From NCBI RefSeq assembly GCF_963675165.1, contig NC_087377.1, positions 7,457,122 through 7,521,121 on the forward strand: DNA of 64,000 nucleotides. Reading direction: 5' to 3'. The notes under the pieces are model-generated. The model did not search any database, had not been told where the DNA came from, and was given only the letters and a program-made list of their open reading frames with translations. The position numbers and the translations under genes were made by a program. How positions within the stretch are numbered: position 1 is the stretch's first letter; each line of letters begins with the position of its first letter. This document shows positions 1,679-48,307 of the stretch, in pieces. This stretch comes from Halichondria panicea. Its lineage: Eukaryota > Porifera > Demospongiae > Suberitida > Halichondriidae.

Positions 1679-4600
1679 ATAGATGATTACACTAGTTTGA
1701 CATTCCTTCTGCTTGCAATTGCAGGGACATTCACTGTAGCTGTAAAAGGTAAGTTAGCTATGCATGGTCTATAGGCATTATTTTGCTATTCTGCAATTAG
1801 GTCCCAACATCACCTTGTGTTTGTAATGTTACCATAATTATTCAGAGATTGTGGCTGTAATAATAGTACCATAAAAACTCGATTTAAAGCGACACATATG
1901 TTTTGCAAAAGTAAAGTTTTAAAGTACACAAAAAATTATATGGTGCTAATAATTATGAGCGAAATGTCCAAGTGTCGCTTATTTAGAGGGTCGCCTTAAA
2001 TCGAGGTTTTACGGTACCGTATAGCGGGAAATTTTCATGGGGTGCAAAAATTTCCCGTTTTTCAAGGCAACTAAGTTAACGCGAAAATATACTGAGAGAC
2101 TCGATCTCCCACGCACCAATATATTTCACATGCAAAGCTCTTGGTGGGTGCATGCATGGGTTTCCTGGATTGAAACGCGAATATTAGAACCCATGAACAT
2201 TAATTTCTGCTGAGGTCTCTAGGGCCAAAATTATAGCGAAAATTTACACCAGCAAAATTTTCCCGCTATACGACAATGGCTCACAATTTGTGGCCAGTGT
2301 ATTATAGATACGTTACAATACCGTCTTTCTTCTAATTACAGTACCTAAGAAGCGCGCCACCAATTGAGCGGCAATGGAATTATATTTTGCTGGGGCTTAT
2401 ATTATGTAATTATTAAAGCGGCCTAAAATCAATAATCTCTACAAATTATAATTCATACATTTGACTCATTATAGCCTTGTTGCACGGCTACTATCACTCT
2501 ACATTCTAACGTCTAATTACACTAGCACCACTCCAATAAGTATAAGTGCCAAACTAGCTATTTGTGTGTGCCATGCACTGTAAAACCACAATTTTGTCGC
2601 TGCAATTAGAAGAAAAACGATAGATCTAGTTAGATCGTATAATATCAAAATAGATCTATTGTGCCTAAATGGACAACTGAAAGTAACACAGAAATTTGTT
2701 TATAATTATCATTTTACACTTAATAAGAAGACTATATTTACCCCTATCTAAGGTAGTGATTATAATGTACAGTATATAGGCACTTTCTGTCTGCCTAATA
2801 CCTTATAGTCTATAGTGTATATATACTGATCACACAGCCCAACAGTTTACAATTGAGCCTGAGTCAGTGGTACGAGCCGAGGGATTATTGGCAGAGTTTG
2901 AGTGCCTGTCTCCTGGAGCACTAGCTCACCCTTGGTTTGTGAATGGCATTGAGTCTACAAGCCCTAACAGTTCATCTGAAATCAGAGTAGCTGGAGGTAT
3001 TTCAGGTCGTCCCTCAGTGCTGACCATCCCAGCCAGTTTACAGTTCAACAACAGTGTCATGCATTCAGTGTCTCGCAGCTTCAGTGAGTAGTGTAGTGTT
3101 CTCAAGGAATGCAACATTGATAGTTGGTGAGTTGTTATAATTATTTGTAGAGAGTACACCTATAGACACGGTTGCCTTAATTTAATGAGGCCTTTTTTCA
3201 GAGCGTGTATCTATTGAAGTGGTGAATAGTGAAACCCACCTTGCTGTCTCTGTGACGAATAACTTCACTCTGAATAATGTTACCTATCGTGTGGACATCT
3301 CGCTTACTGCTCTGGGCACCAATGAGATGGTTGCACTTCCTCCTCTAAATGGGCGAACAAATCAAGCACAGTTTAATTTCGGATACCCTAACCACACTGT
3401 CTGTGATATATTCACCTTCATTGTGACTCCAATTAGTGAGTCAGGAATGAAAGGAAGAGATCCAGTGAACCTGCAGTCCCTGCATGGGTTTTTCCTACGA
3501 GTATAACAGGTACTGCAGTACATTTTGTATATTGATATTTTGCACTCAGCTCTGTGTTCTTCCACGTACAGGTGATAGCATTGCCCCACTCATCAGCCGG
3601 AATGAAGATGTGTTGATGAAAATTGTGACTTTCATTGATGCGGTAACTGGAACTTCACCATTATAGTATTAATGCTCCATTTTGCAGGTGCCTAACTGCC
3701 GCAACTTCACTCATTACCGAATAGACTCAGCTGCTTTGCCAAGTCCCATCACTGAGATCATACAATACCCACTGACTGTGCTGAGTTTCCCTCTTCCCTC
3801 TGACATAATAACCAATGTCACTGTCACACTTACTGCACTGGGGGGTGGAACTGATATTCCAAAACATAGCAATACGTACGCCATAATAATTATTGGAACA
3901 ATAATTATAATGGCTAATTGTGCATGTTTTATCCTTGTAGGAACAACTGATGTTCAAAATTTGACAGTGAACATTTGCCCTGAAGGAAACTGTATTAGTG
4001 TGAGCATTGTGTATGTTGAAGGTATACCCTCTCTCCCGGAGCTCTTGTCTGTGTGATACGTATCACTGATGGAGAGTTGGATTTTGGTAGCATAAAAGTA
4101 ATTACCATACCTCATAGCAGGAGTGACAATTTCACAATATTAGCTGTTCCCAGTGGAAACTGCAGAGTGATTACGAACGCAATTTTCTGCCGAGAATGCC
4201 CATCTCAATAGCAGCTAACAGCAGGGACATATCTGTTATGGTGTCCTCAGGAGATGGAGGTATTTCTGATCATGTGTATATTATAGTGTCACTTGTCCTA
4301 TTTATTTTGTATATAGGACAACCTCCCAGTTGTGAGGGCGTTTCTGTCACAAAGTTGCCAAATGGAGATGCACAAGTGACTTAATTGTGCTGACTCTGAT
4401 GTCGTTTGTCTTGTTTTGTTTCAGTCTACCATCAACAATCTCGACAGAATTTTAGTTGCTCTCATTGACTCATTTGCAAGTTCAACGACCTTCTTTGTCA
4501 GTGACACCTTTGCTAATGGCCATGTGATAGTCTACTCTTGGAATAGCTCACAATCCATCTTCGACGGGAAGGTATCAATCATTAGGCAACTCAATCCACC

Positions 4601-5192
4601 AACAAGTATAAGCGTATTTGGTAGCTCATTTTCATACTGTTTACTGTGTTGTGTATATACAGGTGCACCTTCTACTTTGTCTCCTACCGATCCCACACCT
4701 GTTACTGGGTCCCAATTTCCATTGCCCGGAGTAATAGCTGGTAAAGCGAATAGTATTAAATGTGTAGCTAAAATACACCTATATAATTTATAATAGGGAT
4801 AACTGTGGTGGTGATTCTGCTATTGCTTGTAGTCATTGTTGTTGGAGCAGGCATTGTAATTTGTATTATAAAAAAAAGAAAAAAGATGCAGAATGAAGGT
4901 AAATAATGTCAATGCACGTTGCTAGATACAAATACATTGACCTTGATAAGCAGTAACTATTCAAGCTCCCGAGTCAGATGGACAAGTGGATTGGTGCTCA
5001 ACGTTTCCAGGAATTGAGCAGCCCAACGAAGCTTATGCTCCAGTACTCAAAAAGAACATTGCTTATGAGCAAATAAATAAACCACGGAGACAGAGGATTG
5101 ATAATTCACAAGCCCCGGCAACAATAGAGGGAGAGTATGAGAGCATTGAGCCAGTTCATGAGTACGAGGATGTGCTCCCGAAAACTAATTAA
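1679..5192 (+). pseudogene. Receptor copy 1 (type 2 Ig/FN3 receptor), broken
   Basis: All ten exons of the family plan can be traced: signal exon to 1748, Ig 2838-3126, FN3-like 3202 to about 3513, 3572-3642, 3688 to about 3880, 3941-4259, 4317-4605, stalk 4663-4740, membrane 4797-4898, tail 4954-5192. The gene is damaged. The signal-exon start is ATA where copy 6 has ATG. The Ig exon has a 4-bp insertion at about 3061-3064, just before the second Ig cysteine, which runs the frame into a stop. The FN3 exon has extra bases at 3447-3488, the exon-5 donor is lost, exon 6 has a 2-bp insertion near 4022, and exon 7 has a 4-bp insertion giving TAA at 4382. The tail itself is open and keeps YAPV, YEQI, YESI and YEDV, but lacks the last YVNV motif. 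The membrane segment (VVVILLLLVVIVVGAGI) followed by a lysine/arginine stop-transfer run is intact. The C-terminal half is closest to copy 4. Confidence 0.85.
1871..2273. mobile_element. Two adjacent MITEs in intron 1 of copy 1
   Basis: The first (1871-2012) has inverted ends reading aaaaactcgatttaaagcg and cgccttaaatcgaggtttt. The second (2015-2273) begins taccgtatagcgggaaatt and ends aattttcccgctatacg. The second belongs to a family repeated many times in this window, often just after the receptor tail exon. Neither encodes protein. Confidence 0.7.
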
Positions 5193-5321
5193 TTTTATAT
5201 CTCAACAGTTTTGACTTTACAAAACTAGATTTAGATGGGCATGGCCCGTCCTCCATTATTAAGTTGCTTTATTCATTATTTTGTGGTCACAATCTTTTGT
5301 AGACAATTGCAAACCATGCAG

Positions 5322-5550
5322 GTACCGTATAGCGGGGAATTTTTGCCGGGGAAAGTTTTTTTGCTATTTTGGCTCCAGAGCCATCAGTAGAAATGTTCAT
5401 AGGATCTAATATTCGCGGTTCATTGCCAGGAGACCACACCCACCAATAAGCTTTGCATGTGAAATACCGGTGCGTGGGAGTTTATCCTAGTTTTAATTTT
5501 CTGCCCTCGAAAAACGAAAACCTTCCACCTCACGAAAATTTCTCGCATAT
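5322..5550. mobile_element. GTATAGCGGGAAATTTT-family MITE
   Basis: Starts ggtaccgtatagcggggaat and closes with the inverted form ending near 5550. The interior shares cacccaccaataagctttgc and gtgcgtgggagtttatcc with the copies at 2015, 11615, 19040, 30669 and 35800. It lies about 130 bp after the stop of copy 1. Confidence 0.65.
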
Positions 5551-6644: not shown

Positions 6645-7199
6645 CTTGTGATAATAAGATTATTACGCCAGTACAACCAATTTTGGATCTAGAGTGAGAG
6701 AGTCTAATGAGATAATTATTGGTACCATGCTACTCGTGAATGAGGTTGTGAGAAACCCAGTTTAATTTGGCAATTTTACTGACGATCGATTTTTTAAAAG
6801 TGGCACGTTAGAAAGGTTTTTTGCGGATTTAATTTTCGCGAATAGGAGCCGTTTTGCAGCAAGCATATGCGATATTAAATTCATTGGTGTAAGTACATGC
6901 ATGCTCAGCGAAATCACAAACGTTTATACCCTCGAATAACCTGCTATATATACAGTATATACATGACACGAAGATTTTGTGAGTATTACGATGAAAGATT
7001 TAATTCGGCGCGCCTCAGGTGTGGCTACTCTGCCACTTTAATATTGGTGGCTACTTTTAACATTAGTAAAATTTGCCAAATTAAACTAGGTTTCTCACAA
7101 TCTCATTCACGAGTAGCATGGTACCAATAATTATCTCATGCGACTCTCACTCTAGATCCAAAATTGGTTGTACTGACGTAATAATCTTATTATCACAAG
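6645..7199. mobile_element. Non-autonomous DNA transposon with long inverted ends
   Basis: The left end, cttgtgataataagattatt and onwards to about 6773, is repeated in reverse complement at 7074-7199 (ending aataatcttattatcacaag). The inverted repeats are about 125-150 bp with a few mismatches. No transposase is encoded. It abuts the boundary of the block duplicated at 25.57 kb, which begins ctgctctgac. Confidence 0.7.
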
Positions 7200-7200
7200 G

Positions 7201-8409
7201 CTGCTCTGACAAAACTACGCATGATATTTGGTTTCAGTATACGTGAATTAAAGAACATGCATATATACGAGCCTGGAGGGACCTTGCAGACCAATTATAT
7301 AATTATAATAGGCTAACTGCAGTACCAGCAATAATTATCGAGCACTGTGCTGCACAATAATTATACACGACTGCATGTATAGCTCCTTTATCTATTTTAG
7401 CCAGACACCTCAGTGTGTTTTCATAACTATGACAATTCTCCTACTATAACTGCAACAAACAGATCTTCCCTAGAATAATTATATTGCTACACACCTTATG
7501 CAGATATCACTATCCAAACTGTACACTGCACCTGCCGTGATAAGAGTCCTGCAGACACTTTGCCCATGCATGTATGGTGAATGGTAGTAAATTGCTACAC
7601 GGACAAACACATTGCATGAACAATCCAAGAGCGGAGAGGCACAAAAAGTATAGCAATGCAATGTGAGCTAAGAGATAAATAAAAAGATGGCATATGCATC
7701 AAAACAATGCACGTGCATACAATTAAAAACAACTGCCTTGGAAACAACACGCCTTTTTACAAGAACCAGAATATTAATTACGTATAGCAAATAGGTTGTT
7801 CAGTCTGAGTTTCATGCCCGGATGGTGGCACTGTAATGATTTAATCGACAAAATTATGTCACCTCAAGTCAGTTCCATCCGTGAGAAATGAGGAGAGACA
7901 GGTCTGGGATAGGGTACCCCGCCACGCTGGGGTAGATCTAGATCGGCATGCACACAATCTTGAATTGTATCCAAAGATAATACTAGACAGTGCATCTGGG
8001 ATATGATGGAGGGTAATACTTAATAACATTAAAGGGTGAAGAGGTGGCCTTGTTCCTTTAATTTCCTCTGAAATAGTTCTGCAAGACTACGATTGGTAAA
8101 GATCGCACTAGATAGTCACTAGACATCCAATCCTAGAACTCTTATAGATATAAATTATTGGGTTCTGTTGGCTGCATGGCTTTAATATATAAAAGTACTA
8201 AATATATCTACTGTCGTACAGTAAAGGTGAGTGATCTGAAGGGGGGTATGTGGGTGTAGATTGTGTCTAGCTGTTGCCATGCATAGATATGGCTAGATCT
8301 AGTCTAGACTGATCTCAGTATCAGGTATTAAACTAGATCTATGTATTAGAAATCATATCTATCATAAATCATATCTATGATTAAATCTTCCACATAGCTT
8401 CATGCTCTG
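7201..8409 (+). repeat. Duplicated 5' flank of copy 2 (matches 25565-26745)
   Basis: This upstream block is closely repeated before copy 5 (gcatgatatttggtttcag; cagacacctcagtgtgtttt; gtcagttccatccgtgagaa). The likeness continues through the signal exon and into intron 1. It marks copies 2 and 5 as products of one duplication that carried the upstream regulatory region. No other gene is seen here. Confidence 0.75.
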
Positions 8410-11400
8410 ATGGACAAGAGTTTGACATCTTTCACTTTTCTTTTCATGGCAGGGTCATTCATCATAGCTGTAAAAGGTAAGGCTATTGGCAATACACATT
8501 AATTTCAGAATACTGCTGCATACAAACAGAATAATGTTGCCACAAGAATACTATTCTACATGTAGATCGTATATACTGAGTTTCGAGTGCCTTAGTTATA
8601 GTCAATTGCGAACGACATTGCATGTATAAGCCTGAATACTATTGCAAATTGCACGTGAAGCATACTAATTGTATGCTCCTTGCGAGTCAGATCACTGTTT
8701 CCTTTGCAACTGCTATATATAATTATAATTATACGCAGCCAGAGATTGTGACTCATAATCATAGTCCAACATGTGATGCTCCTCTGCATGAGTACCACCA
8801 CTATTGGCACACTTTTGGATCCATTTTCAGTTAGTTACTGCTAGGAGTACCGTCTTATAGTTTTTGTCAGTGTGTGTGAGAGCCTATACTGAATTATTAT
8901 CTCCCCCACCTCAGAATAATTAAAATACATGTAGATCTGCACATATAAATTGTGTGCTGCCAAATTACTGGTGTGCATTGTACTTTTGAATAAACTACTG
9001 AAACACAGTTTACATGACTGTATTATTTTGTCTAATTTAGACAGTGATATCTAATTGACCTGATTTATAATAATGATTTTATAATTATTCTCGATTAAGG
9101 TAACCTATAACAACGTCTGCGTGCTAATACTTTCTTACAGCTCAGTTCACAATACAGCCAGTGTCAGTAGGGAGAGCCGAGGGACTGGAGGCAGTGTTCA
9201 GGTGCCAGTATCAAGCCGAGGGATTTACTAATAATTATATCTGGGCAATAAACAATGTTGTAGTGGGACAAGATACAGAAACTGTTAGAGCTCGTCGACC
9301 TTCATCCCCTGGTGGACCAACTACACTGACAATATTGGCCACTCCACAGCATAACAACTCTATTGTGTATTGTAGTGCTGTTATCATAAATGGCACTGAT
9401 ATTACTTTAGTAGATTCATCCACAGCATCTCTAGTTGTTCATGGTGAGTCAATATCTTGATTGTTTCAGCATAATTTTCTTTATTAGAGACGGTCCTCAC
9501 TCCGTTTGTTGTTGCACCAAATACCCTCACCGTGACGTGGAATGCTCTACCTCTCACTGAGTACTGTGTGGACATCACCAGGACAACTCTAGACTTCACT
9601 GAAACAGTTGTTATCGATTCTCTGTGTGGACTGACTAATGAGTACATCTTCATGTACTCTAATAACAGTGTGTGTGCTAGATTCACTGTGACTCCTACTG
9701 ATGGAGAGATGAGGGGAACAACCAGTGAATTATGTACCGGGTTATTTACGAGAGTAGAAGGTATGTTTATACTATAATAATAGTATTACACTTCTATAAT
9801 ATTATGCAGGTAGTGGAGAACAACATCGTATTCTTGAAACTAAAAGGAATAAATTAGTCAAATTTAGGGCAACTGTAAGTGATTTGATTTTAGTTGTTCG
9901 TTTCGTTGTTAAGAATGCATTTTAGTTTGTTGAGTTCTCTCATAAAATTCTAGGTTCCAAGTTGTACAAAGTTCACTCAGTATCGTGTGGACTCTGACCT
10001 ATTGACTACCTCCATCAACCTTCCAATCACGGACCCTCTTCTGTTTGATGGCACACTCAGTTTCTTCCTCTCCACTGACAAGATGACAGAATACAGTGTC
10101 ACACTGACTGATGAGAATGGAATAGATCTCGTGTTTGAGAACATTCCAATCAGTGAGTTCAATAGTACGTGTTCATTTGCTAATTATTTGATCCCCAGGT
10201 ACTTTTGACGTTCAAGACCTCCTAGTGTCTGAATGTCCTGGTGGTGGTGGTATTTGTGTGAGCATTGTGTATGTTGAAGGTACCCTCTCTTCCGGAGCTC
10301 TCGTCTGTGCAGTACGTAACATTGATGGAGTGTTTGATTTTGCTAACATGAAACTGGTTTCCATCCCTCGGAATTCTATTGAGAATTTCACCATTCCTGT
10401 TTCTAGTGGAGAATACCGAGTGATTGCTTTTGATCTGGAGAGCAACGATTTACCAAACATGCCCATCTCTATGGTAGCACTCAGTCAAGACATTATGAAA
10501 GTGAACGCTAGTGTTGAAGGTACCTGCTCTGTGTGTTATTGCTGTGCTATAATTATAGTCATTTACCGTAGACATTATCAGTCCACCACCAAGAGAGGGC
10601 ATTAGTGCATCCAATTTAACGAATGGAGATGTTAGTGTGACCTGCTCCAACTCTGCCCTGAATTGTCTAGTCTTGTTTCAATCCACCACCATCTTTGACA
10701 GAGTGATTGTCGGTTTCATTAACTCTTCTGAAGCCTCAACTGTCCTCTCTTTGAATGACACCTTTGGTGATGGCTATGTGATGGTGTACTCTTGGAATAG
10801 TTCACAGTCTATCTTTGAAGGGGAGGTATCGCTCATTATACAACTGGATCTACTCACCAGTAAGTGCCTCTGTAGATTATCATGCAGAGCTAACATCATT
10901 CATTGTTTTCTACACCTCCAACGTCTGATCCACAAACAGACCCACCTCCTCCTGATATTGAGTCCCTGCCAACATCAGTTATCACTGGTAGGTTTTAATG
11001 CTGTAAAGTATTATCATAATGATTCTATCCATTCACTGTCACAGCAGCAGCTATAGCTGGTAAGTCAATACCTACAGAGCACTGAATAATGTGTATGAAA
11101 TAGCATATAATTATTATTATTATGATAAACCATCAGTTTGTGAATATTTACCGTTTACTGGGTTAAGCTTTTAGGTTTAGTGATTCTGCTATTGCTTGTG
11201 GTCACCGCTGTTGGAACTGTCGTTGTGATTTTAAGGAAGCGGAGACAAAATGAAGGTACCTAAATCATTCGTTAACTTGTTTTGAACAATTGACATGCAG
11301 TTGAGGTTCCAGAGTCAGATGGAAGAGTGGATTGGTCATCAACATTTACAGGAATTGAGCAGCCCAACGAAGCTTATGCTCCAGTACTCAAGAGGAACAT

Positions 11401-11563
11401 TGCCTATGAGCAAACAAAGAAACCATGGGGACAGAGGATCGATGACTCACAAGCCCCGGCAACAACAGAGGGAGAGTATGAAAGCATTGAGCCAGTTCAT
11501 GAGTACGAGGATGTGTTGCCTCAGGGAAAAGCAAGTCGTGCAAATTATGTTAACGTTAACTGA
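8410..11563 (+). CDS. Receptor copy 2: type 1 Ig/FN3 transmembrane receptor with tyrosine-motif tail
   Basis: Eleven exons join in frame to about 640 aa: 8410-8476, 9141-9443, 9488-9760, 9810-9874, 9954-10152, 10199-10519, 10572-10859, 10940-10987, 11045-11059, 11175-11255, 11301-11563. The start is the ATG opening a typical signal peptide (MDKSLTSFTFLFMAG). Residues about 24-123 form an Ig-like domain with Cys in FRCQYQ, Trp in YIWAIN and Cys in VYCSAV. About 125-214 is FN3-like (TVTWNA, TVTPTDGE). Two or three further beta-rich extracellular modules follow, with several N-glycosylation sequons. The membrane helix is about 529-549, followed by RKRR. The 87-residue tail has Y579 (YAPV), Y589 (YEQT), Y613 (YESI), Y622 (YEDV) and Y636 (YVNV, a YxNx Grb2-type site). 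Exon 8 has lost the acceptor used in copy 5; the acceptor at 10937-10939 given here is a guess that keeps frame. Likely a cell-surface recognition receptor; ligand unknown. Confidence 0.8.
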
Positions 11564-13567: not shown

Positions 13568-16500
13568 ATGGACAAGAGCTTGACATCATTCACTTTCTTT
13601 TGTATGGTAGGTTCATTCATCATAGCTGTAAAAGGTAAGTTAATTTGGCAGTATAACTTATCAATATTTGGCCGTCTCTAAAAATCAGACGCTCACAAAA
13701 CAACCTGCTGCAACTCCAGACTTTTCAACTTTTGTGCATGTGAAGGCCTGCACCCGTCCTACATTCAAAAGACCCAGCTGCAGCAGATATAGCTACTAAA
13801 ATAGTCTAAAGTGTCGGCCGTTTACCTCATTGTCGGACGCAGTCATTTTTTGCTTACAGAGCGATATATACTGGCGTCTGTATAGCACCTACACATAGAG
13901 CCTAGCCTTTCTAATATAGTTTTTTTACAAAGTGATGTTGAACACATGGTAGTCAAGTTCTCAATATTGGGCGCCATTTGTGAAAAAACTACGAAGAGAT
14001 TCAATACGTACCCGCCTTGCCTCTTACGATGCTCAGAAGTGTATAAAACAAAGGAAAAAGGCTACGGCAAAATAGACTCAGGCTGAGTTAGCGTGATTAG
14101 ATTGCATCAGGTTTTTGTATCATAATGTAACAAATCATGCTAACTCAGCAGTTTAGCTTATTTTGCATGCTTTTGCCTTCGTTTTATACACTTCTGAGCA
14201 TCATATAATAGAATGAGGCATGGCTGGTACCCCATACGTCTCTAGCAAAGCTTATAGAAACTTTCACAGCTGTATAGTCGGCAATAGGGCAATAGGTTGA
14301 AAACATTGATTTGTTGAGTATTCAAACCACCGACTTAGCTACTGCTGTGCACGAGTAAAGCGACCGGATTACTACTTCTAATTGTGGTGGCACACTACCT
14401 GATCATTGTCTATTTTTGCATACAATGATACTATTAACTTTTTGTTCCTATCATAGGTAGTGATGTGCATATTCAATTGGCCTTCCCGTCTTCCTAGTAC
14501 TATACATTTATTGTGCATGTACACATTGGATTGACTGTGAGGCGTGGCTAACACCCACTTTAATAAATGATATTCATCGCTATTGGCTAGCACCCACATA
14601 GAATGAAAGATTTCATGATACTATTGCGTAACAGGCCAGAACAAAACTGTGGATAGGCTTGATTCCCGACCTCCTTCAAGGAGGGCGGCGGCGGCGCTCG
14701 ACTACATAGATACATGTACTATACAGTGGAACCTCCATAAAACCATGATAAACGAACACCATTGGGGAACAGCCTTTTGGCCATTATAGAGAGGTGGTCT
14801 TTAATGTTGAGAGGTTTCGATTGCCAACCACATGTATGCTCTGAGTCAATTCCTACTGCAGATGAATCTTGGAGTTTTGCTAACGCTCTTTAGCTCATAC
14901 ACGCTTTAAAAAGGCTGTAGGGACAAGCTACAGCTCGATGGTGTAAAATAATTCCATCTCAGCAATAATATTCTGCTAATTCTGGGTGTGGTTGCCCATT
15001 TTGGGAGATTTATTTTCTATATCTAAAAGCGGATTGGGGACTATAGAAAGCTGCTCGTTATACGGAGTAGAAAGGTGGCCACTTCACAGGCTCTCCTTTT
15101 TCTGTTGTTTACCACAATCGTTCAATAAGTGTATTATATAATCGTTCAATATAAAATACGGTATTAATTGGAGAAATAATTATATAGAGGTAGAGTTAGA
15201 AAAAAGGAGAGCCTGTATCAGGAAGTCACGTATAGAAGGGTGAAAATGAGCGTGGGCATGCAGTGCTAGAGATGTTGGACTGCCTACGTAGAGATCTATA
15301 TATGACTAATAAAACTGTGTCTGCAGCAAGCTAGGCTGGACATGGACTTGGATGGAAGTTTGCAAGCTGTTTATACCGCAAGCTAGCTAGCTATACCCAG
15401 TAGTCTAGATCGTGTGTACGTGTTTATAGATTCATTGTCTTGTGTCTTTGTAATAGCTTAGTCATCATTATCATGTAGCAGGTAGCTACTGTCACGTATA
15501 CCAACGCTGGTTCCCTGACTAGACTCAAAAAATATTTGGTCCCCTGAAATATTCAGTCCCCCCGGACCAAATATTTCATGAAAGCATTTGGTCCGGGGGG
15601 ACCGAATATTTCAGCTATCGCCTGTAATTATTTGGTCCCCCCAGTCCATTGACAGATAGCTATTGCAGTGGTCTGTTCAAAGTTATTATGGACATCTTCA
15701 TGCAGATTAAGCCTATATCTGCATGTCAAGGTAAAATCCCAAAATAAATAGCCTAGCTCAGTATTAACTTGTTGAAACAATTGCATGTTTTGCTGTAAAT
15801 AACAGCACGATATTGACTGAAATAATTTGTCCGGGGGGACGAAATATTTGGTCCCCCTGGACAAAATTCGGGTGGACCAAATCTTTTGTGACAGTACCTT
15901 GGCAGTGTCTCAGTACAGTCTTATTAATTAATTAACTCTGAATGCGTGGGAGAATCTTTCACGATTGTGGTGGGCTACATATCGCCCACGTTCATAAAAA
16001 TCCTTGTGGATCACGTGATTTCCCAAACCAGGCCTTACTTTTTCTTAACTGTACGCCCATTTCTTTCTTCGCTGCCTCATTTTGTCGATTCTTTTTTGCT
16101 ACTTTCTATTTATGGATGAACAATGACAACAGCAAGGCCTGGGAACGAGGCTAGCCGCTCCTGGGAGGTTGCTTTACATTGAAATCATTGTAGTTTCAAT
16201 TCGAACCTGAGCTCTTGGCCATTATATAATAGCGTGTGGTGGAACATTTCTTTTTATTTAGTGCTGGTGTTTAGCACACGAAAATTAAAACTACAAAGTT
16301 ATTCTACTGCACGTCACTATCCTGAGGTGTACGAATATTTAAGCAGTTCATACAAAAATGTGCACCAACGAAAATTACCTGCTATGCAGTACCTATTAAA
16401 ATTATTGATTTATGTGTACACAGCCCAGCAGTTTACAATTGAGCCCGAGTCAGTGGTACAAGCCGAGAGATTGTTGGCAGAGTTTGAGTGTTTGTCTCCT

Positions 16501-32614: not shown

Positions 32615-32867
32615 TGTAACAGACTAGCCTCTCTAGCCTGTTAGTGAGGGAACTAGTGTTTCAATTGATATGACTTTTTAAGCAACAACAATTCTAGTCC
32701 TACTTTTATACACCAAATAAAAGAAACTTCTGGAATTGTCTTTCCAAGTATACTAAATTCTAGAATCATCCTGCACTACAACCACAAACCACTAAATTAC
32801 TGAACTTTAAACCATAGTAAATTCTAGAAGTATCCACCAGTTCTTGATAATTAATAAGTCCGTTACA
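32615..32867 (-). repeat. Left LTR (3' LTR of the element)
   Basis: 253 bp. Matches the right LTR apart from two missing segments (about 17 and 9 bp) and few substitutions. Termini TGTAAC...GTTACA. Confidence 0.85.
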
Positions 32868-33062
32868 TCCTTCAGTGTCAAATAGAGTTTGACGCAGCAC
32901 GTGAAAGGGCGTTACATCCTTCAGTGTCAAATAGAGTTTGACGCAGCACGTGAAAGGGCGTCTGCATTTCCATTTGCGGTTCCAACTCTGTGCAACACTT
33001 CAAATTGGTATGGTTGAAGAGATAGACTCCAGCGGGTGAGTCTTGAATTTTTATCCTTGAGT

Positions 33063-34314
33063 TTAAACGTTCAGCCACACAAAAGCTCGATGGTCAGTTT
33101 GAATCGTAAACTTCTTGCCTTCAAGATAAACTCGAAATGCTTGTATTCCTTGCTTAATGGCTAAGCACTCTTTCTCAACGGTGGAGTATCTTGGCAAAAG
33201 CTTCTTGCTGTAATATGCGACTGGGTGGTCTATCCCTTGCTCATCAAGTTGACTCAGTACAGCTCCTATTCCTCTGTCGGAAGCATCTGTCTGTAATATG
33301 AATTGTCTTGTAAAATCTGGACTTTTCAAAATTGGTGCAGCACATAAAAATTCCTTGAGGGCATCAAAACTCGATTCGGCATCTTGTGAGCAGTGTACCG
33401 TGTTTGGAGCCACCTTTCTTGTGAGATCTGTCAATGGGGCAGCAATCGTTGCATAGTTAGGTATAAACCGCCTATAATATCCGGTAAGGCCGAGAAATGT
33501 TCTGACTTGTTTCTTTGTGGTTGGTAGCGGAAACTCTTTTATAGCTTTGATCTTTGAATCTTCGGGTCTAACACATCCTTCACCGACAATGTGCCCCAAA
33601 TATTGGCAATTGTTTGTCCCAAATTGACATTTCTTGAGTTTTGCTGTTAATCCACTTTGTCCAAGCCTCTCAAGTACTTTTTCCAAATGAGTTAGGTGCT
33701 CGTCCCACGTCTTGCTGAATATGATCAAGTCATCCAAGTAGGCTGCTGCGAAGCCATCCAGTCCTATGAGTACATTGTCCATCAATCTCTGAAATGTAGC
33801 TGGTGCTCCTTGTAATCCAAACGGCATGACATTGAACTGAAACAGTCCAAATGGTGTGACAAATGCAGTCTTGTGACGGTCTTGCTCGGCTACGGGCACC
33901 TGCCAATATCCACGAGTCAAGTCCAATGTAGAGATAAACTTTGCGTTCCCCAATCTGTCAATTAGTTCGTCTACTCTTGGCATTGGGTATGCATCGGTCC
34001 GTGAACAACTGTTCAATCTTCTGTAATCCACACAGTCTCATGGTGCCGTCTTTCTTTTTAACCAACACAATGGGTGAACTCCACTCGCTGCTTGAATGTG
34101 AGATTAATCCTGCTGTCAGCATCTCATTCAAGTCTGTCTTGACTGTATCACGAAACACATGAGGTATCCTGTATGGTGGCAATCTCATTGGTCTTGCGTC
34201 ACCTGTCGGGATCTTGTGTTCGGCTAGCCTAGTATGGCCTGGTGTATCCTTGAAAAGCTGCTGTAACAGTCGTTTGAGCTGTTTTCCTTGGTTTTCTTCT
34301 AATTGTATCTTCAT
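33063..34314 (-). pseudogene. Pol fragment: reverse transcriptase plus RNase H start, frameshifted
   Basis: Minus-strand frames 34314-33958 and 34031-33063 together carry a gypsy-type reverse transcriptase: SSPIVLVKKKDGTMRLC, YPMPRVDELIDRLG, FISTLDLTRGYWQ, MPFGLQGAPATFQRLMD and the catalytic AAYLDDLIIFS. Then come FLGLTGYYRRFIPNY and RNase H motifs (LQTDASDRGIGAVLSQ, STVEKECLAI, QTDHRAF). One frame break falls between the two frames near 34.0 kb and a second near 33065, after which RNase H C-terminal sequence (ALSRAASNSI) can still be traced to the 3' LTR. It is not functional as read. Confidence 0.85.
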
Positions 34315-34792
34315 AGCGTCACTTTCAACTTCCTCGTTTTGTTCCAGTTTCCATTTTCCTCTTCTACTCCTTCCTGTGCAAATCCAACTGTCTGCTCGAA
34401 TACATAGAACTTCTTCAGGAGATTGACATGAAATACTCGCTTTCTCTTCTTCTTGTTATGCATGTCGATGAGGTAGTTAACTTTGCTCGTTTTTTTCACA
34501 ACTGCATATGGCCCTTGCCACTTGGCCAATAACTTTGAGCTGCTCGTCCTCCTTTAAGGTCTCTGTCTTTTGCCTTCTTGTCGTACCACTGTTTCTGCAA
34601 CTTCTCCATATTCTCTTTGACTAGTTCAGCCATAGATTCCAACCTTTCTCGAATGGTTAGCACATAAGAAATAACACTTTCGTCAGTGTTCTGAGAATTT
34701 TCCCAAGCATCCTTTAGAACATCAAGTGGCCCTCGAACTCTACGTCCATAGAGTGTGATCCTGGGTGAAAACTCGTCCTGATCTACATCCAA
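34311..34792 (-). pseudogene. Integrase C-terminal fragment upstream of RT
   Basis: Minus-strand frames 34792-34496 and 34529-34311 encode the C-terminal part of a gypsy-type integrase (ENMEKLQKQWYDKKAKDRD; AKWQGPYAVVKKTSKVNYL; RVFHVNLLKKF). It precedes the reverse transcriptase in the direction of transcription. The catalytic core (DDE) is absent, deleted between the 5' LTR region and this fragment. Confidence 0.75.
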
Positions 34793-34816
34793 TAGAAGTA
34801 TACCGCTGCCACCAAG

Positions 34817-35095
34817 TGTAACAGACTAGCCTCTCTAGCCTGTTAGTGAGGGAACTATCGGTGGATCTTTAACAGTGTTTCAATTGATACGACTTTTTAA
34901 GCAACAACAGTACAGATAATTCTAGTCCTACTTTTATACACCAAATAAAAGAAACTTCTGGAATTGTCTTTCCAAGTATACTAAATTCTAGAATCATCCT
35001 GCACTACAACCACAAACCACTAAATTACTGAACTTTAAACCATAGTAAATTCTAGAAGTATCCACCAGTTCTTGATAATTAATAAGTCCGTTACA
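34817..35095 (-). repeat. Right LTR (5' LTR of the element)
   Basis: 279 bp, full-length form of the LTR. It lies directly before the candidate primer-binding site in the direction of transcription. Confidence 0.85.
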
Positions 35096-35551
35096 ATAAT
35101 ATTGATCATCAACATTTGCAGGAATTGAGCAGCCCAACGAAGCTTATGCTCCAGTACTCAAGCTCAAGAAGAACATTGCCTATGAACAAACAAAGAAACC
35201 ACGGGGACAGAGGATCGATGGCTCACAAGTCCCGGTAACAACGGAGGGAGAGTATGCGATCATTGAGCCAGTTCATGTGTACGAGGATGTGTTGTCTGAG
35301 AGAAAAGCAAGTCGTGCAAATTATGTTAACATTAACTGAAACTTTCCCACACAGTTGTTTGACGGTATACAATGTATCTACCCATCTTTGTACAAAACTG
35401 AAAATGAAAGTTATAATTGTACACAGGAGTGCATCATAACATGATTCTAGTGTCTTACTATTGTGATCTTTAATTAAAATTTAATACTAAATCTAGAATG
35501 TGATTCATTTTTCTACTACATAGCTAGCTTGGCACACCTATATATGCTTTG

Positions 35552-38500
35552 ATGGATGATTACACTAGTTTGACATTTCTTCTATTTGTGGGGACGTTCA
35601 CCATAGCTGTAAAAGGTACGTAAGTAGCTATGCATGGTCTAGGCATAATTATTTTGCTATTCCTGGTCCAGAAATGCATGGTGATACTCTTGCTATTTTA
35701 TAGGCTATTGCTTTGTTTGTTACTACAATTATCCAGAGATTGGCTGCATGTATAATGTGTTTGACCGTATTATCTAATGGCTTACATTTGTGGTTAGTGT
35801 AGATACTGTATATAGCGGGAAATTTTCGTAGGTGCACAATTTTGCATTTTTTGAGGGCAGAGCAGTTACGCAAAAATTAAAACTGGGATAAATTCCCACG
35901 CACTGGTATTTCACATGCAAAGTTCTTGGTGGGTGCATGTGGTTTCCTGGCATTGAAATGATAATTATTAGAACCCACGAAAATTTCTGCTGAGGGCTCT
36001 GTAGCCAAATAGCAAAAAGGGTGCTAATATTTTCCCGAAAATTTCCCCGCTATAATTATATATACGGTACTGAATGGGGGCTCATATAGTTGTATTTCTC
36101 CACCCACACCACACCACACCACACACCTCACACACACACACACCCACATGTTACACTCACCGCCACTATATATACGGTAATACCGGTACCGTTTTTCTTC
36201 TGATTACAGTGAGAAAGTGCTCCAATTGAGCGGCAAGTAAAGTCTAATGGCGCGCTATTAGAAATAACAATAATAATAGCCTAAAATCAATCAACGCTAT
36301 AATTGATCCATTGCTACTATCATGCACTTTACGTTAATTCTTCCTAATGCTATAAGCGCCTGTTCTATTGGTGATTAGAAGAAAACGATAGTTGTGCAAA
36401 TTTACTGAATGGACGATAAAACATACACAATTAATGTAGAAGAGTATACTATTAATTTGTTGTTCCTATCAAAGGTATATAGTGATGTATATATACATAA
36501 TTATATTCAATTGGCCTTCCTGTCTTCCTAGTACCATACATTTATCATGTACACAGCCCAACAGTTTACAATTGAGCCTGAGTCAGTGGTACAAGCCGAG
36601 GGATTATTGGCAGAGTTTGAGTGCCTGTCTCCTGGAGCACTAACTCATCCTTGGTTTGTGAATGGCATTGAGTCTACAAGCCCTGACTTCTCATCTGAAA
36701 TCAAAGTAGCTGGAGGCACTTCAGGTCTTCCCTCAGTGTTAACTATCCCAGCTAGCTTACAGTTCAACAGCAGTGTCGTTCAGTGTGCAGCCGTTTCAGT
36801 GACTGGTGGAGTCTTATCAAGGAATGCAACGTTGAAAGTTGGTGAGTAGTATAATTACTTGCAGAGTATACATCTTGACACAGTTGCTTTCAATGAGGTT
36901 TTTTCTCTCAGAGCGTGTATCTATTGAAGTGCTGAATGATGAAACCATTACCGTCTCTGTGACCAATAACTTCACAATAAATATCCTCTCCTATCATGTG
37001 GACATCTTTCTCACTACTCTGGGCACCAATGAGATGGTTACACTCCCTCCTCTAAATGGGATTCAAAATCAAACACAGTTTAATTACGGGCAACCTGATA
37101 ACCACACTGTCTGTGATATATTCACCTTCACTGTGACTCCAATTAGCGAGTTAGGAATGGAAGGAAGATCCAGTGAACCAGTAATTTACTTCTTTACAGC
37201 AATTAGAGGTTCTGTGAATGTTTTATTGAACGTTTATGCTTGACAATTACCACAGATAATAACAATGTCACTTCCCTCATCAGTCAGGGAGGAAATGTGT
37301 TGATGAAAATAGTACATCTCAGTGGTATGGTAAGAGACGTATTGACTGTAGTAAGATACATTTATTCAGCACACCTCTATAGGTACCCAACTGTACCAAC
37401 TTCACCTCCTACCAATTGACCTCTGACATATTGGCACCCATCAATAAGACCATCGAAGACCCCCACATGATAAGTTTCTCTCTTCCCACTGACCAGATAA
37501 TCAACATCTCTGTGACACTTACTTCGATCACGGGTGTACGTCTCATATTCAAGGACATGCTAATCAGTAAGTCGTGTTATTCAGTAGTAAGTATTACATG
37601 CTGATTTTAACACAGGAACAACTGATGTTCAAAATTTGATTGTGGACGTTTGCCCTAAAGAAAACTGTGCAAATATTGAGTATGTTGAAGGTACCCTCTC
37701 TCCCGGAGCTCTTCTCTGTGTGATACGTATCATTGATGGAGAGTTGGATTTTCCAAGCACAAGACTAGTGCCAATTCGACGGAATATGAGTGACAATTTT
37801 ACCATCCCGGTGACTGTTAGTGGAAATTACAGTGTGGTTGCATTTGACCTTGAGAACAACAATTTGAGTGTACCAAGAATCCCCATTTCTATAGCGGCCA
37901 ACGATGAAACTATATTTTTGCTCAATAGTAAGTCGGCTATTATTATGTCAGTGTTGTACATATACTTTTTTGTGTGCTGTGCCATATCCTCCCAAAAAAT
38001 TGTACTCGCAGATAATTGGCATTAAAACCGCTTGCGAGTAATTGAAAAATTTAATTTCACAACTTGAGCAAGAATTTAATTTAATTAATTTTTAAGCTAA
38101 ATAGTGAAATCGCAAACAAATCAGGCTACCTGTGAAAATATGTCACCTTAAGGTAATCTCTCACGAGCGGACCTTCTGGATTCCGGACAGCGGACAATCT
38201 TTGTGCAAAACTTCCTCTTATAACGGACAAACAGAAAATTACACATGTATATTTTATGTCCATATGGTATTATGTTATTGCTATAAATCGTACTGCCATA
38301 CTGCAAAGCATGAAAGAATTATGCTTTATATCTTTGATTTTAGCAAGTTTCTTACTTATCGTACTTTTTGAACTAGAATTAGGGTCTAATTATAATTATA
38401 CATGAATACTATCTTGATATGGCAATTTGAATGAACCTTCAAAAAGAGACTAGGACAAACACTCTGCCTCCAAGTGTCCTTTATTCGGAGGTTCCATATA

Positions 38501-39454
38501 GTGCTTTCGCAGGTTGACCTCGAACCTCAAAAATTCTGTCATTTGAATTTCTATCGTCATATAATTATAACAACGCAATTTGTGAACATAATTATTTTTG
38601 CTAGATAGTACTGTGTTAATAAAGTTGTTGGGTTCCCTTTTCCTCAGAATCTTCCACTGAACCAAATTTTCCACCTAATTCTAAGGACATCACTGTCACT
38701 AAACTATCGAATGGGAGTGCTGAAGTAACCTGCACTATCACTGGCCAGAGTTGTCTAGCATTGTTTCAATCTACAAACTCTCCAACCTCTCTTGATCCGA
38801 TGGTGATGATTGGTTTTATTGAACCACCTAATGACAGAACCACTGTCACTCTTGATGCCACTTCCGATATTTATGTGGTAGTGTACACTTGGAACAGTGA
38901 TTCTAGTGAGACCATCTTTGATGGGAAGGTATCCTTCATCAGTAAGCCAAGAGTTAGTTTCAGTTTCAAAATTGTATGCGTTCTGTTCTTCCTCTTGCAG
39001 GTCCTCTCCCTACACGAGTACCTGACAGTACAGAGTTTGGATCTCTGCCCATACTAATAGCAGGTGAATGATGCAATTCACGGCTGTCTGTGTATATTTT
39101 TGTCTTTTAAAAGATATCATCACTGTGGCTGTGGTACTGCTTCTCCTGGTAGTCATTGTAACTATAGTAGCCGTAGTTATTGTGAAGAGAAAACGAAGCC
39201 GTTTTACAGAATCAAATGGGAGAGTGGATTGGTCATCAACATTTGCAGGAATTGAGCAGCCCAACGAAGCTTATGCTCCAGTACTCAAGAGGAACATTGC
39301 CTATGAGCAAACAAAGAAACCATGGGGACAGAGGATCGATGACTCACAAGCCCCGGCAACAACAGAGGGAGAGTATGCCAGCATTGAGCCAGTTCATGTG
39401 TACGAAGATGTGTTGCCTCAGGGAAAAGCAAGTCGTATTAACATTAACTTATAG
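35552..39454 (+). CDS. Receptor copy 6: type 2 Ig/FN3 transmembrane receptor, fused membrane/tail exon
   Basis: Nine exons join to 637 aa: 35552-35615, 36557-36841, 36912-37208, 37256-37329, 37383-37566, 37616-37927, 38648-38941, 39001-39063, 39114-39454. The signal peptide is MDDYTSLTFLLFVGTFTIAV. The Ig-like domain (about 23-116) has Cys in FECLSP, Trp in HPWFVNG and Cys in VVQCAA. An FN3-like domain and three more modules follow as in copy 3. Exon 7 is shorter than in copy 3 by 18 bases and lacks SQLELP before its splice site. The membrane exon (helix about 526-548) runs on into the tail without an intron, through RFTESNG instead of the usual EVPESDG. The tail keeps YAPV (Y578), YEQT (Y588), YASI (Y612) and YEDV (Y621), but a 10-bp deletion replaces the last YVNV motif with INL. 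All splice sites are GT-AG. Confidence 0.8.
35800..36070. mobile_element. GTATAGCGGGAAATTTT-family MITE in intron 1 of copy 6
   Basis: Left end tatagcgggaaattttcgta near 35811, right end aaaatttccccgctataatt near 36048. The interior is inverted relative to the copies that follow tail exons (cacgcactggtatttcacat). Confidence 0.65.
37928..38647. other. Intron 6 of copy 6 with old repeat
   Basis: This 720-bp intron holds an inverted pair (ctcacgagcggaccttctgg / ttattcggaggttccatat type sequence) typical of a decayed DNA transposon. No coding exon is seen. Confidence 0.4.
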
Positions 39455-43545: not shown

Positions 43546-43547
43546 CT

Positions 43548-43785
43548 ACCGTATAGCGCGAAATTTTCGAGGGGCTTAATTTTCGCTGATTTCGTGGGTT
43601 AGAATCTACACAAAAATTATGTCCACGAAAATTGTTGTTTAATTAGAATTACCTGCTATCATGCAAATATTTAAAGGCGTGGCTTCCGGTAAGCAGTCAT
43701 TCTGCAAACATTGTGCAACGAAATAGCTTTTAGAGGCCAATCCACGAAATATAAGTGCCTCGAAAATTTCGCGCTATACGGTATA
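43548..43785. mobile_element. MITE with GTATAGCGCGAAATTTTCG ends
   Basis: Left end taccgtatagcgcgaaattt, right end gaaaatttcgcgctatacgg. Related to, but distinct from, the MITEs following the receptor genes. It is followed by a repeated gtggccgcccacgcgcctcg motif (43790 and 43840). Confidence 0.65.
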
Positions 43786-45439
43786 ACCCGTGGCCGCCCA
43801 CGCGCCTCGGGTTAACAAACAAACAAACAGACTACTATACCTGTGGCCGCCCACGCGCGCCTCGGGTAAATATTCTAGTAATACGTTCAGTAGTGCGAAA
43901 TCGATGGGGCTTAATTTCTCCACGAAAATTAGGTCCATGAAATGCTTAGAGCTAACACAAGACGCAACTTCATTTAAATGACATTGCGTCTTATGTTAGC
44001 TATATATTTGGTCAAATTTTGACAAAATAGCGCAATATGATTTAAAATTTCGCGCTATTGTTAAAACCATGGCACCACTTTTGTTGTAGAGCTGCTTTTC
44101 AACCATTTAAGCTGCTATGTGGTGAACATAATCGAATCCATGAGATCAATACATTCCATACACCTTTCATGAATGTAGCTGGAATGCGACACCTTGTTGC
44201 CTCGTTTGCCTTTCTTCACTCGATACAGAATAACGATAACGATCGATGACAATATTAAACAATAACATAATTATAATTATAATTATTGCAATGATCAGAA
44301 TCAGAGTAACAACAATGACTGCAGAGAGAGAGAGAGGTCACGACTATTAATGCTAGCATGTAAAATAGGCAATGGAACGCAATCATATACCACACGTACT
44401 TGCTTACCTATTATTACTATGGGCGGTGGAGGTTGAGGTGAAGACAATGATGGAGATTCCGTACTGTCAAGAGGTGATTGTGTAGGGGGAGGACCTGCAA
44501 CATTAAGAATAGAGCACATTATAATTCTGAAACTGAAACTAACTCTGGGCTTACTGGTTCGTAGCTCCAATTGATCAATGAAGGATACCTTCCCATTAAA
44601 GATGGTCTCACCAGAATCACTGTTCCAAGTGTACACTACCACATAAACATCGGAAGTGCCATCAAGAGAGACAACAGTTCTGTCATTAGGTGGTTCAATA
44701 AAACCAACCACCACCATCAAATCAAGAGAGGTTTTAGATTGAAACAATGCTAGACAACTCTGGCCAGAGGTAGTGCAGGACACTTCAGCACTTCCATTTG
44801 ATAGTTTAGTGACAGTTCAGAATTAGGTGGAGAACTTGGTTCAGTGGAAGATTCTGAGGAAATAGGAACCCAACAAGTAAAATAGTTCGAGCTCAATCAT
44901 ACGGTCAAGGTGTGTGCACACGAGATCAACTTTCATGAGATCAACTCCCAAATTTCAGTGTAACGTACCCTATTTAATATAACAAACACGTTCAGAGGAA
45001 ATTTCAGGTCATTATACAAAGGCAGCCTTTGTGTTGAGGGGTTGCTTTTGTACTAACGATGACTTTTTTCATTATTAAAATATCGTTGTTGGTTCTGGGC
45101 TGATGTGATTGAAAGTGAATGTTTCCATTGATCCAAGTTAATTTGTACTACATGTAAGTGCATGAAATAGTCCACTAGCTCGTCAATGTCAAGCCAGGTT
45201 ATTAACAAATGTCAATGGACAAAATGCCACAGATACCATAAAAATGTACGTCTCGAATTTTCGTGTAGATACACCCCTCGAAGTCTTTCCTATAGCTCTT
45301 CAACTGTTCCTGAATTCTTGATGATTGAGCCATTGAGAATGAGTGTGCATTGTGCTAAATCTATAGGGGTTTTTTACTCAATACCTGTCCTTTGGCATGG
45401 GCGCATAGCTAAGAAAGTGAGGCCAACACCTTTAAAAAG

Positions 45440-45615
45440 TTAATTTCTGGATAACAAGATTAGAGTTGATTTGAGTTGATTTCAGGAGTTGAGTTGATCT
45501 TATGAAAAGTTGATTCTGTGAGAGTTGATCTATTGACAGTTGACCTCATGCAAAGTTGCTCTGGTAAGAATTGATCTCGTAGGAGTTGATCTCATGAAAG
45601 TTGATCTCGTGTGAG
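45440..45615. repeat. Degenerate GAGTTGATCTCATGAAA tandem repeat
   Basis: About eight imperfect units of 18-22 bp built on gagttgatct, lying in the intron between exons 6 and 7 of copy 7. An inverted piece (gagatcaactttcatgagatc) lies at about 44925. Confidence 0.65.
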
Positions 45616-46022
45616 GCAATCTATAAAACGCACACCACAAACGAATGTACATGTACAAGACTGACAGCCGACTCACCATTGCTCAAAACCGTACTTTCAT
45701 CGTCGGCCACTATAGAAATGGGCATTCTTGGTACACTCATATTGTTGTTCTCAAGGTCAAATGCAACCACGCTGTACTTTCCACTAACAGCCACCGGGAT
45801 GGTAAAATTGTTACTCATATTCCGTCGAATTGGCACTAATCTCATGCTTTGAAAATCCAACTCTCCATCAATGATACGTATCTCACACACAAGAGCTCCG
45901 GGAGAGAAGGAACCTTCAACATACTCAATACTTGCACAGTTTTCTTTAGGGCAAACGTCCACAATCAAGTTTTGAACATCAGTTGTTCCTGTGGAAATCA
46001 TTGTAAATCAAATCAGCATTGT

Positions 46023-46620
46023 AAAGCCCCGTTTACACAAGGCCTTTAATCTTGGTTGGAATCCAGATTAAACCTATCCGCGTTTGTGTAAACAGGCTCC
46101 GGATTAGCCAACCTACCTCTAAAGCAGAGGAGGTACCACACTTTCTTGGCTTCATGTATTGCTCAAGGTCTCTATGGCTAAGTACGTATATTGTTTCTCC
46201 AGCTGAGGTCCTCGTCAATATATTTATGAAGGGTGCAGCTAGTGCTCTCACCTCTTGTAGCAAGCATATCTCGTAACTGAATAGGGGTTCACTGGTGTTC
46301 AGCAAAGGAAACAGTTTGATCTAGGTCTAATCTATATACTACCCTTGACTTTGAAAAGCCTCAGTCACAGAATAATTAACGAGTTATTATGAGGAACACA
46401 CTACATTGAAAACTAAGATTGGAATACAATTAAAAGAGATATCACGAGATGTTGTCGTACCGCTTAGCTGTGAGTAAACACAAAGGGCTAATTCTGAGGT
46501 GTTGTTTATGTTTTTGCGCAAATGCAAGTAGTGGTCGTTTTACAATTTTACTATGCCCACTACTCAGACAAATCAGACCCGGATTTGACCCAGATTAGGC
46601 GTCGTGTAAACAGGGCTTTA
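46023..46620. mobile_element. MITE with AAAGCCC(C/T)GTTTACAC ends
   Basis: Begins aaagccccgtttacacaagg and ends cgtcgtgtaaacagggcttt, with inner inverted pairs (tccagattaa / gacccagattagg). It lies in an intron of copy 7 between exons 5 and 6. No ORF. Confidence 0.7.
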
Positions 46621-47694
46621 TACTACTACCAGGAGTGCTACTGAATAACATGACTTACTGATTAGCATGTCCTTGAATATGAGGCCCACACCCATGATCG
46701 AAGTAAGTGTCACAGAGATGTTGATTATCTGGTCAGTGGGAAGCAGGAAATTTATCATTTGGGGGTCTTCGATGGTCTTATTGATGGGTACCAATATGTC
46801 AGTGGTAACTTGGTAAGAGGTGAAGTTGGTACAGTTTGGTACCTGAGAGGTGAGCTGAATAAGTGTGTCTTACAGTCAATACGTTTCTTACCATACCACC
46901 GAGATGTACTATTTTCTTCAACACATTACTGATGAGAGGAATGACATTACTACCTGTGGTTTTTTTGTCAAGCATAATTATATAAACACATTAAAGATAA
47001 TATTCACAGTACCTGTTACTTGTGTAAAGAACCCAGTGACTGGTTCACTCTGATTTCCTTCCATTCTTGACTCAGAAGTAATTGGAGTTACAGTGAAGGA
47101 GAATATATCACAGACAGTGTGGTTCTTAAGTTGTTGATAATTAAACTGCACTTGATTTTGAATCCCATTTAGAGGAGGAAGTGCAACCATCTCATTGGTG
47201 ACCAGAGGCACCAGGGAGATGTCCACACGATAGGCGAGGTTATTCATAGTGAAATTATTCATTACGGAGACAGTAATTTTGGTTTCACCATTCAACACCT
47301 CAAGAATTACACGCTCTGAGAAAATAAGCACAGCAACACAAGGTATACTTTCTACAATACACCACTCACCAACTGTCAATATTGCAATCCTTGAGAACAA
47401 CACTGCACCACTCAGTGAAAATGCTGCACACTGAATGACACTGTTGTTGAACTGTGAGCTAGCTGGGATGGTCAGCACTGAGGGACGACCTGAAGTACCT
47501 CCAGCTACTTTGATTTCAGATGAAAAGTCAGGGCTTACAGACGGTGTGCCGTCCACGAACCAAGGATAACCTGATGCTCCAGGAGACAGGCACTCAAACT
47601 TTGCCAATAATCCCTCGGCTTGTATCACTGACTCGGGCTCAATTGTAAACTTTTGGGCTGTATTATTATGACGTACATGGCGGCGGTTTGTCAT

Positions 47695-47988
47695 TAGACT
47701 CGCAAGCCGTCACTGTTGCAGGCGAACAGTAGACTGGTCAAACTCCGTGTTGAGACTCGTGTAACGTTTGCCACGATATTTGTGGCAACTAACCGCATGC
47801 GGTTACCACAAGATCAATGATAGTGACGTTTCACTAGAAAATTCTACGTATCACATGCAGTATACTGACGTCACGAAAACCGCAGCCACTTAAAATATTT
47901 TCTGATATGCTGACTGTGCAACACGAGTCTCAACACGGAGTTTGACCAGTCTACTGTTTGCCTGCAACAGTGACGGCTTGCGAGTCTA
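47695..47988. mobile_element. Mutator-like MITE (element 4) in intron 1 of copy 7
   Basis: 294 bp, almost entirely two inverted repeats of about 68 bp plus a short core, starting TAGACTCGCAAGCCGTCACT. Flanked by the 9-bp duplication GTTTGTCAT (47686-47694 and 47989-47997). The first 14 terminal bases equal those of element 1. Confidence 0.8.
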
Positions 47989-48307
47989 GTTTGTCATTGC
48001 ATGTAAAATATTTATAGTGACACATGTATGTGTATCATACCTTCAATAACTGTGATTGTAAGAAATAGCCCAACTACAATGCACAAGGCAGTTGTCTGAC
48101 TTGCTATAGCTGCCACCAACTCCATCTACAAGAGCTACAATAAAAATAGTTTGACTCTAACTATGGGTTATAAAATTCATTACTAGCTTGTCGTCTGATA
48201 TCGGCTGTGGTCCTTGTAGATTCACGATCAGCTATAGCGCTAAATGTATAATAGCTAAATTAAGTCTTGCTATTCATAAAAATTAATAGTTAGCGTAGTC
48301 TACTTTC

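Follow-up and report, generated by a model that had tools for sequence, protein, structure and literature searches.

Mammalian KIR, LILR and CEACAM receptors carry the same kind of ectodomain on different signalling tails, lie in tandem clusters and exchange exons. In the Alr complex (ARC) of Hydractinia symbiolongicarpus, a domain near the membrane reportedly adopts a fibronectin type III (FN3)-like fold, a result attributed to work by Huene in 2022. Excerpts of the published accounts describe Alr as a cluster of single-pass immunoglobulin (Ig) receptors with many pseudogenes (PMC11067881, PMC13119343), and the FcoR receptors at the fuhc locus of Botryllus schlosseri as arrayed type I Ig receptors with core Y-x-x-I/L/V tails and motif swapping (PMC12065747). 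According to the excerpted text of the latter source, the sponge, cnidarian and ascidian candidates for allorecognition proteins have nothing in common, and tyrosine-motif signalling is a point of convergence between the cnidarian and the ascidian system (PMC12065747). Here we describe a receptor locus of the sponge Halichondria panicea that lies in a window of 64,000 nucleotides (contig NC_087377.1, hereafter C1, C1:7457122-7521121) of a 131-Mb assembly, this single assembly being the whole sample. The locus is probably part of a clustered, recombining family of recognition receptors, in which an Ig head would meet variable ligands and a tyrosine tail would report their binding. This reading is carried by the gene anatomy, the Ig fold, constraint on the tail, diversification of loops, conflicting exon histories and two alternative tails, all of which we consider established at the level of sequence. 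On our best reading the locus would work like the Alr, FcoR and KIR-type loci; the likeness is one of mode of working, and no homology is claimed.

Eight paralogous units were placed in the window by tblastn with exon peptides, in agreement with the initial annotation of this stretch, and its division into four readable and four broken units also held: U2, U3, U5 and U7 are readable through every exon, with GT/AG borders and one unbroken frame, and were modelled complete, whereas U1, U4, U6 and U8 cannot be read end to end. From the N terminus, the predicted product of a readable unit comprises a signal peptide, the Ig domain, a divergent domain of FN3-like type, further modules rich in beta structure, a linker, a single helix and a tyrosine tail of ~86 amino acids; it shares with Alr the form of a type I membrane protein with an N-terminal Ig domain. 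The exons follow in the order signal, Ig, FN3-like, two exons that make one module (d3a and d3b), module 5, module 6, linker, transmembrane (TM) and tail. Two ectodomain types, A and B, are present, and both type B models (U2 and U5) have a 15-nt mini exon between linker and TM; a conserved short exon between the FN3-like exon and module 4 had escaped the initial annotation. Exon borders are mostly in phase 1, and exons are therefore exchangeable without a break of the frame. The array reaches far beyond the window, an extent missed earlier: the main cluster spans ~0.84 Mb (C1:6.91-7.75 Mb) and holds 56 Ig exons and 49 tail places, the window being one slice of it. Ig exons of type B occupy 30 places; those of type A occupy 26 within the main cluster and a further one on C2. 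Tail matches number 78 in the genome, with 55 rows (49 places) in C1:6.91-7.75 Mb, 20 rows (19 places) in C1:3.44-3.70 Mb, two on C2 and one at C1:8.72 Mb. Module 5 has 66 matches in the genome. All these numbers were tallied manually from the rows listed, with several fragments at the same place counted once. In a second array, of which two units were read, a unit has two successive pairs of an Ig and an FN3-like domain, a single helix and a related tail; the FN3-like domain of this array gives 38 matches. The five-exon ectodomain recurs at three loci on C8, with roughly 37-50% identity. Blocks have been copied recently within the main cluster: U7 matches two other units at 97.8% and 98.6% identity along some 3.2 kb.

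The Ig assignment made in the initial annotation is secure. Its Cys-Trp-Cys core is invariant in 25 sequences (C21, W34 and C77), Pfam Ig_3 matches 11 of the 25 members and I-set five, with the first-listed member below the Pfam cut-off, and the predicted model aligns with NCAM2 Ig1 at a VIA Z of 10.5 over 85 residues (root mean square deviation 2.3). The predicted local distance difference test (pLDDT) is about 41-84 by block in the Ig part of this model and 50.9 for the whole. Among solved Ig folds, adhesion molecules such as NCAM2 come closest, as might be expected if the genes encoded ordinary adhesion or developmental receptors, tandemly duplicated by chance; Ig folds generally score close to those molecules. 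Such receptors, however, are rarely found in arrays of 50 or more that combine exon exchange with a ratio of nonsynonymous to synonymous differences (pN/pS) above 1 in the loops, and we regard this explanation as unlikely.

The FN3-like domain, also proposed in the initial annotation, failed the direct profile tests and draws its support from the second array. No FN3 profile matched the exon directly, direct hhalign gave 0.4%, and a Pfam fn3 search of the genome, in which 150 of 808 candidates were scored, listed none within the window; the predicted model of the exon has a pLDDT mostly under 50. The exon is homologous to the related domain of the second array (E 1e-7; hhalign 95%), which gives 47% by hhalign against FN3 domains of the same genome and E 0.046, a match below the cut-off, against Pfam fn3. 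By sequence this second domain leans towards FN3, and through it the FN3-like label of the main-cluster exon gains some support. For modules 4 to 6, Pfam gave no noteworthy match. A low-confidence model of module 5 (mean pLDDT 56.5) has FN3 domains in its top four Foldseek rows; the lowest E value is 0.045, and no row falls below 0.001. As to the FN3-like domain reported near the membrane in Alr, the sponge FN3-like exon comes after the Ig exon, and the model of module 5 bears a weak resemblance to FN3. A likeness of modules 5 and 6, suspected by eye, was rejected, as hhalign detected no homology among the Ig, FN3-like and module 4, 5 and 6 exons.

Pooled pN/pS was obtained by Nei-Gojobori counting with a bootstrap over units, after removal of exons that contain a stop or are covered to less than 85%. 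The whole Ig exon gave 0.94 (0.84-1.04) in type B and 0.71 (0.57-0.87) in type A. For types A and B, respectively, the ratios were 0.63 and 0.55 in the FN3-like exon, 0.53 and 0.52 in module 4, 0.57 and 0.57 in module 5, 0.47 and 0.48 in module 6, and 0.38 (0.34-0.42) and 0.45 (0.36-0.58) in the tail; strict purifying selection on all exons was not what we found, the Ig exon departing from it. A sliding-window scan shows two peaks of the ratio in each Ig type, which the strands of the model place at C'-D and FG. The type B loop regions reach 1.33 (bootstrap 1.14-1.61) against 0.74 in the rest of the domain, a value above 1 that is suggestive and no clean test because the regions were set after the scan, and those of type A give 0.90 (0.71-1.15) against 0.60. 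By these ratios the tail is under purifying selection, and diversification is concentrated in the two Ig loop regions. A mostly neutral decay of a repeat-rich tandem array, with the high Ig ratio reflecting relaxed constraint, would account for exon-level defects in 25 of the 48 units examined, for a retroelement in U6 and for an overall type B Ig ratio near 1, but it is hard to reconcile with tail ratios of 0.38-0.45, Ig framework ratios of 0.60-0.74, type B loops above 1 and complete, splice-consistent gene models, and we consider it improbable. Exon trees conflict with one another: in six exon pairs the alignment of each exon was set against the tree of its partner, and all 12 alternative topologies were rejected (approximately unbiased test, p ≤ 0.00095); units therefore exchange modules. 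Among 48 units, five combine type A exons with module 6 of type B, and in U3 a type A ectodomain presumably follows a type B-like signal exon. A diversifying Ig head, functional constraint and recombination between units are supported by the pN/pS pattern and the conflicting trees.

The five-tyrosine tail of the initial annotation is present in U2, U3 and U5, and U7 has four tyrosines. Motifs were counted on the 29 full-length members of 41 type 1 tails, some of the other 12 having been dropped for an out-of-frame reading start and not for damage. All 29 carry closely paired YxxI/L/V motifs, 5-12 residues apart, against 3% of shuffles, and all carry HxYE[DE]V; other tyrosine motifs occur in 21-28 of them, and Y-x-N, which we take to be a Grb2-type site, in 20. 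The YxxI/L/V pair was found in none of 12 tails of the second array. The wording 'ITIM/ITAM-type' does not fit these tails: the strict immunoreceptor tyrosine-based activation motif (ITAM) occurs in 0 of 29 and the strict inhibitory motif (ITIM) in four, a chance level given 17% of shuffled tails. Strict ITAM, ITIM and immunoreceptor tyrosine-based switch motif (ITSM) identities for the type 1 tail are rejected on these counts. The cluster is assigned neither to the Alr family, the ITAM/ITIM feature of which was looked for and not found, nor to FcoR or the paired receptors. With Alr it shares the clustering of paralogs among numerous pseudogenes, and it differs from Alr in having an invariant tail common to nearly all tailed units together with a second, unrelated tail. 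FcoR differs in combining sushi domains with a canonical ITIM or hemITAM, where the sponge genes have FN3-like and unnamed modules, and the sponge tail alternatives sit in different genes.

Units without the type 1 tail have a different TM exon and an unrelated tail of ~180-200 amino acids (tail 2) with YDVV, YETV, a proline run and a PPxY-type site. Tail 2 stands behind type B ectodomains at L034, L035, L037, L038 and L070 and behind type A at L068 and L069; both tail types occur behind both ectodomain types. From their order, strand and distance, ectodomain and tail exons are presumably spliced together. The cluster would in this way share with KIR and LILR the placing of related ectodomains on alternative cytoplasmic tails. 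It differs from them in lacking, among the type 2 TM exons read, a short tail with a charged helix residue; no charged residue lies inside the hydrophobic core of those type 2 TM exons that were read by eye. Tail 2 is often accompanied by a second related exon within about 0.8-2 kb, and alternative or tandem forms are possible; such pairs lie on C1 at 7038-7039, 7057-7059, 7301-7303, 7521-7523, 7592-7595 and 7632-7634 kb. The genome has 61 SH2 matches. A weak SH2-like piece containing a stop (E 2.5e-6) was seen at C1:6893767, some 16 kb away from the main cluster's edge.

We envisage receptors displayed on the cell surface, the N-terminal Ig loops of which would bind variable ligands, namely the cells of other individuals, microbes or both. 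A tyrosine kinase would phosphorylate the paired YxxI/L/V tyrosines, SH2 proteins would dock on the phosphorylated tail, and, in the manner of paired receptors, tails 1 and 2 may couple related heads to different outputs. Duplication, inter-unit exon exchange and loop substitution would supply new specificities, and old ones would decay into the many broken copies. Several points weigh against this proposal. The loop regions were picked after the sliding-window scan, the type A loop ratio is not above 1, and gene conversion can distort pairwise pN/pS ratios; the strict ITAM is absent and the strict ITIM is at chance level; the defective units also fit a decaying array; and the basis is the sequence of one assembly. 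Of the recognition complex suggested in the initial annotation, the pseudogene-rich tandem family of type I Ig receptors in a sponge and the multi-tyrosine tails are supported, and the ITIM/ITAM wording is not.

As to the ligand, an innate immune family directed at microbes or symbionts and unrelated to fusion is one possible explanation. A large germline family with diversifying heads, two tails and many pseudogenes would suit such a role, and oyster Ig receptors with an ITAM bind bacteria, according to an excerpt of PMC11999971; sequence, however, cannot tell microbial from conspecific ligands. A sponge allorecognition (histocompatibility) complex, with fusion or rejection of individuals governed by polymorphic Ig heads, is a further possible explanation, of much the same modest probability. 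The locus resembles the Hydractinia complex (excerpts of PMC11067881) and the Botryllus FcoR receptors (excerpts of PMC12065747) in its architecture and clustering, in its load of pseudogenes, and in exon exchange and the diversification of loops. Paralog diversification is, however, equally expected of microbe-sensing receptors, and the published sponge candidates for self/non-self recognition named in excerpts of two accounts are the aggregation factors (PMC11999971, PMC12065747). These are secreted proteoglycan components, and the sponge exons scanned here gave no such domain. For the sponge aggregation factor, PMC12065747 refers to work by Grice from 2017. Only tentatively do we suggest that the ~0.84-Mb cluster, with >50 Ig receptors, exon exchange combined with loop selection, and two interchangeable tyrosine tails of neither ITAM nor ITIM type, might be the receptor side of demosponge allorecognition. 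If so, Ig-plus-phosphotyrosine recognition complexes would occur not only in cnidarians and ascidians but also in sponges. With diversifying Ig receptors and tyrosine tails, such a sponge complex would carry the convergence, or a common origin, to one of the earliest-branching animal phyla, and sponge graft rejection, for decades a phenotype only, would gain a locus open to genotyping and testing. The type B loop ratio above 1, the tail ratios, the module exchange, the two unrelated tails behind both ectodomain types and the motif counts of the tail are new here. A literature search, with most subscription journals outside its scope and therefore weak as a negative, found no description of such a sponge family.

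The units are given below in window positions and lie on the forward strand except for U8. U2 (8410-11563; type B, 640 amino acids) has its signal exon at 8410-8476, Ig at 9141-9443, FN3-like at 9488-9760, d3a at 9810-9874, d3b at 9954-10152, module 5 at 10199-10519, module 6 at 10572-10859, linker at 10940-10987 with an acceptor that differs from that of its relatives, mini exon at 11045-11059, TM at 11175-11255 and tail at 11301-11563. The other complete type B unit, U5 (26749-30631; 658 amino acids), is made of signal 26749-26824, Ig 27964-28269, FN3-like 28321-28602, d3a 28658-28722, d3b 28782-28977, module 5 29027-29344, module 6 29398-29685, linker 29747-29833, mini exon 29892-29906, TM 30243-30323 and tail 30369-30631. 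U3 (13568-18998; 630 amino acids), with a type A ectodomain, presumably uses a type B-like signal exon (13568-13636) that lies 2.8 kb upstream of the model body (16424-18998), which comprises Ig 16424-16702, FN3-like 16773-17075, d3a 17125-17198, d3b 17252-17435, module 5 17489-17800, module 6 18099-18410, linker 18464-18538, TM 18599-18688 and tail 18736-18998. U7 (35552-39454; type A, 637 amino acids) contains signal 35552-35615, Ig 36557-36841, FN3-like 36912-37208, d3a 37256-37329, d3b 37383-37566, module 5 37616-37927, module 6 38648-38941, linker 39001-39063 and a single exon, 39114-39454, in which TM and the four-tyrosine tail are fused.

Among the broken units, U1 (1679-5183) combines a type A ectodomain with module 6 of type B; its signal exon (1679-1750) has ATA where relatives have ATG, the Ig frame is broken, module 5 contains a stop and the tail (4962-5183) is open. 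U4 (20862-22288) is a remnant with modules 4-6, a damaged tail and stops, and tblastn found neither its Ig nor its FN3-like exon. U6 (32018-35336; type B) has a stop in the Ig exon and its tail at 35106-35336; a retroelement fragment with reverse transcriptase and RNase H readings lies on the reverse strand within 33063-34825, between FN3-like exon and tail. U8 (about 44170-48125, reverse strand) is inverted and has a type A ectodomain with five open exons, a candidate signal exon at 48125 and a type 2 TM exon near 44337-44170; neither a type 1 nor a type 2 tail was found for it within the window. Three pairs of inverted repeats are 100% identical (40521-41633/50419-51531, 49278-50305/53891-54918 and 42941-43430/48308-48797), and two of them flank U8, suggesting recent mobile elements or a recent inversion. 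A 402-aa open frame on the reverse strand (55412-56620) has no Pfam match and a Cys/His pattern that by eye resembles the end of a non-LTR retroelement.

A neighbouring gene at 23233-25009 on the forward strand is not a member of the family: it encodes a Ser/Thr-rich extracellular stretch rich in N-glycosylation sites, one helix and a long tail (24512-25009). This is a third kind of tyrosine tail, on a different ectodomain, with the motifs CVYAII, DYENI, DYENL, DYAVP and EYSKL; the gene has two good copies in the main cluster, the second at C1:6989331, and three partial ones, and was also read at L071 4441-5630. At L071 2713-3204 lies a single-helix protein with an acidic, tyrosine-bearing tail that ends near SYVNVGV and recalls the YVNV end of the type 1 tail. 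Lone pairs of Ig and FN3-like domains occur outside the arrays at C1:6342443, 7778465-7779181, 7793265-7793930 and 7937800-7938521 and are possibly older relatives. Silicateins mark demosponges, and a silicatein-type active-site motif was found three times within 11 kb at C2:656915-667884, against none for the reversed control pattern; the three form a small silicatein cluster, and their signature is indicative of a demosponge. One of these readings, judged by eye, closely matches the solved silicatein alpha.

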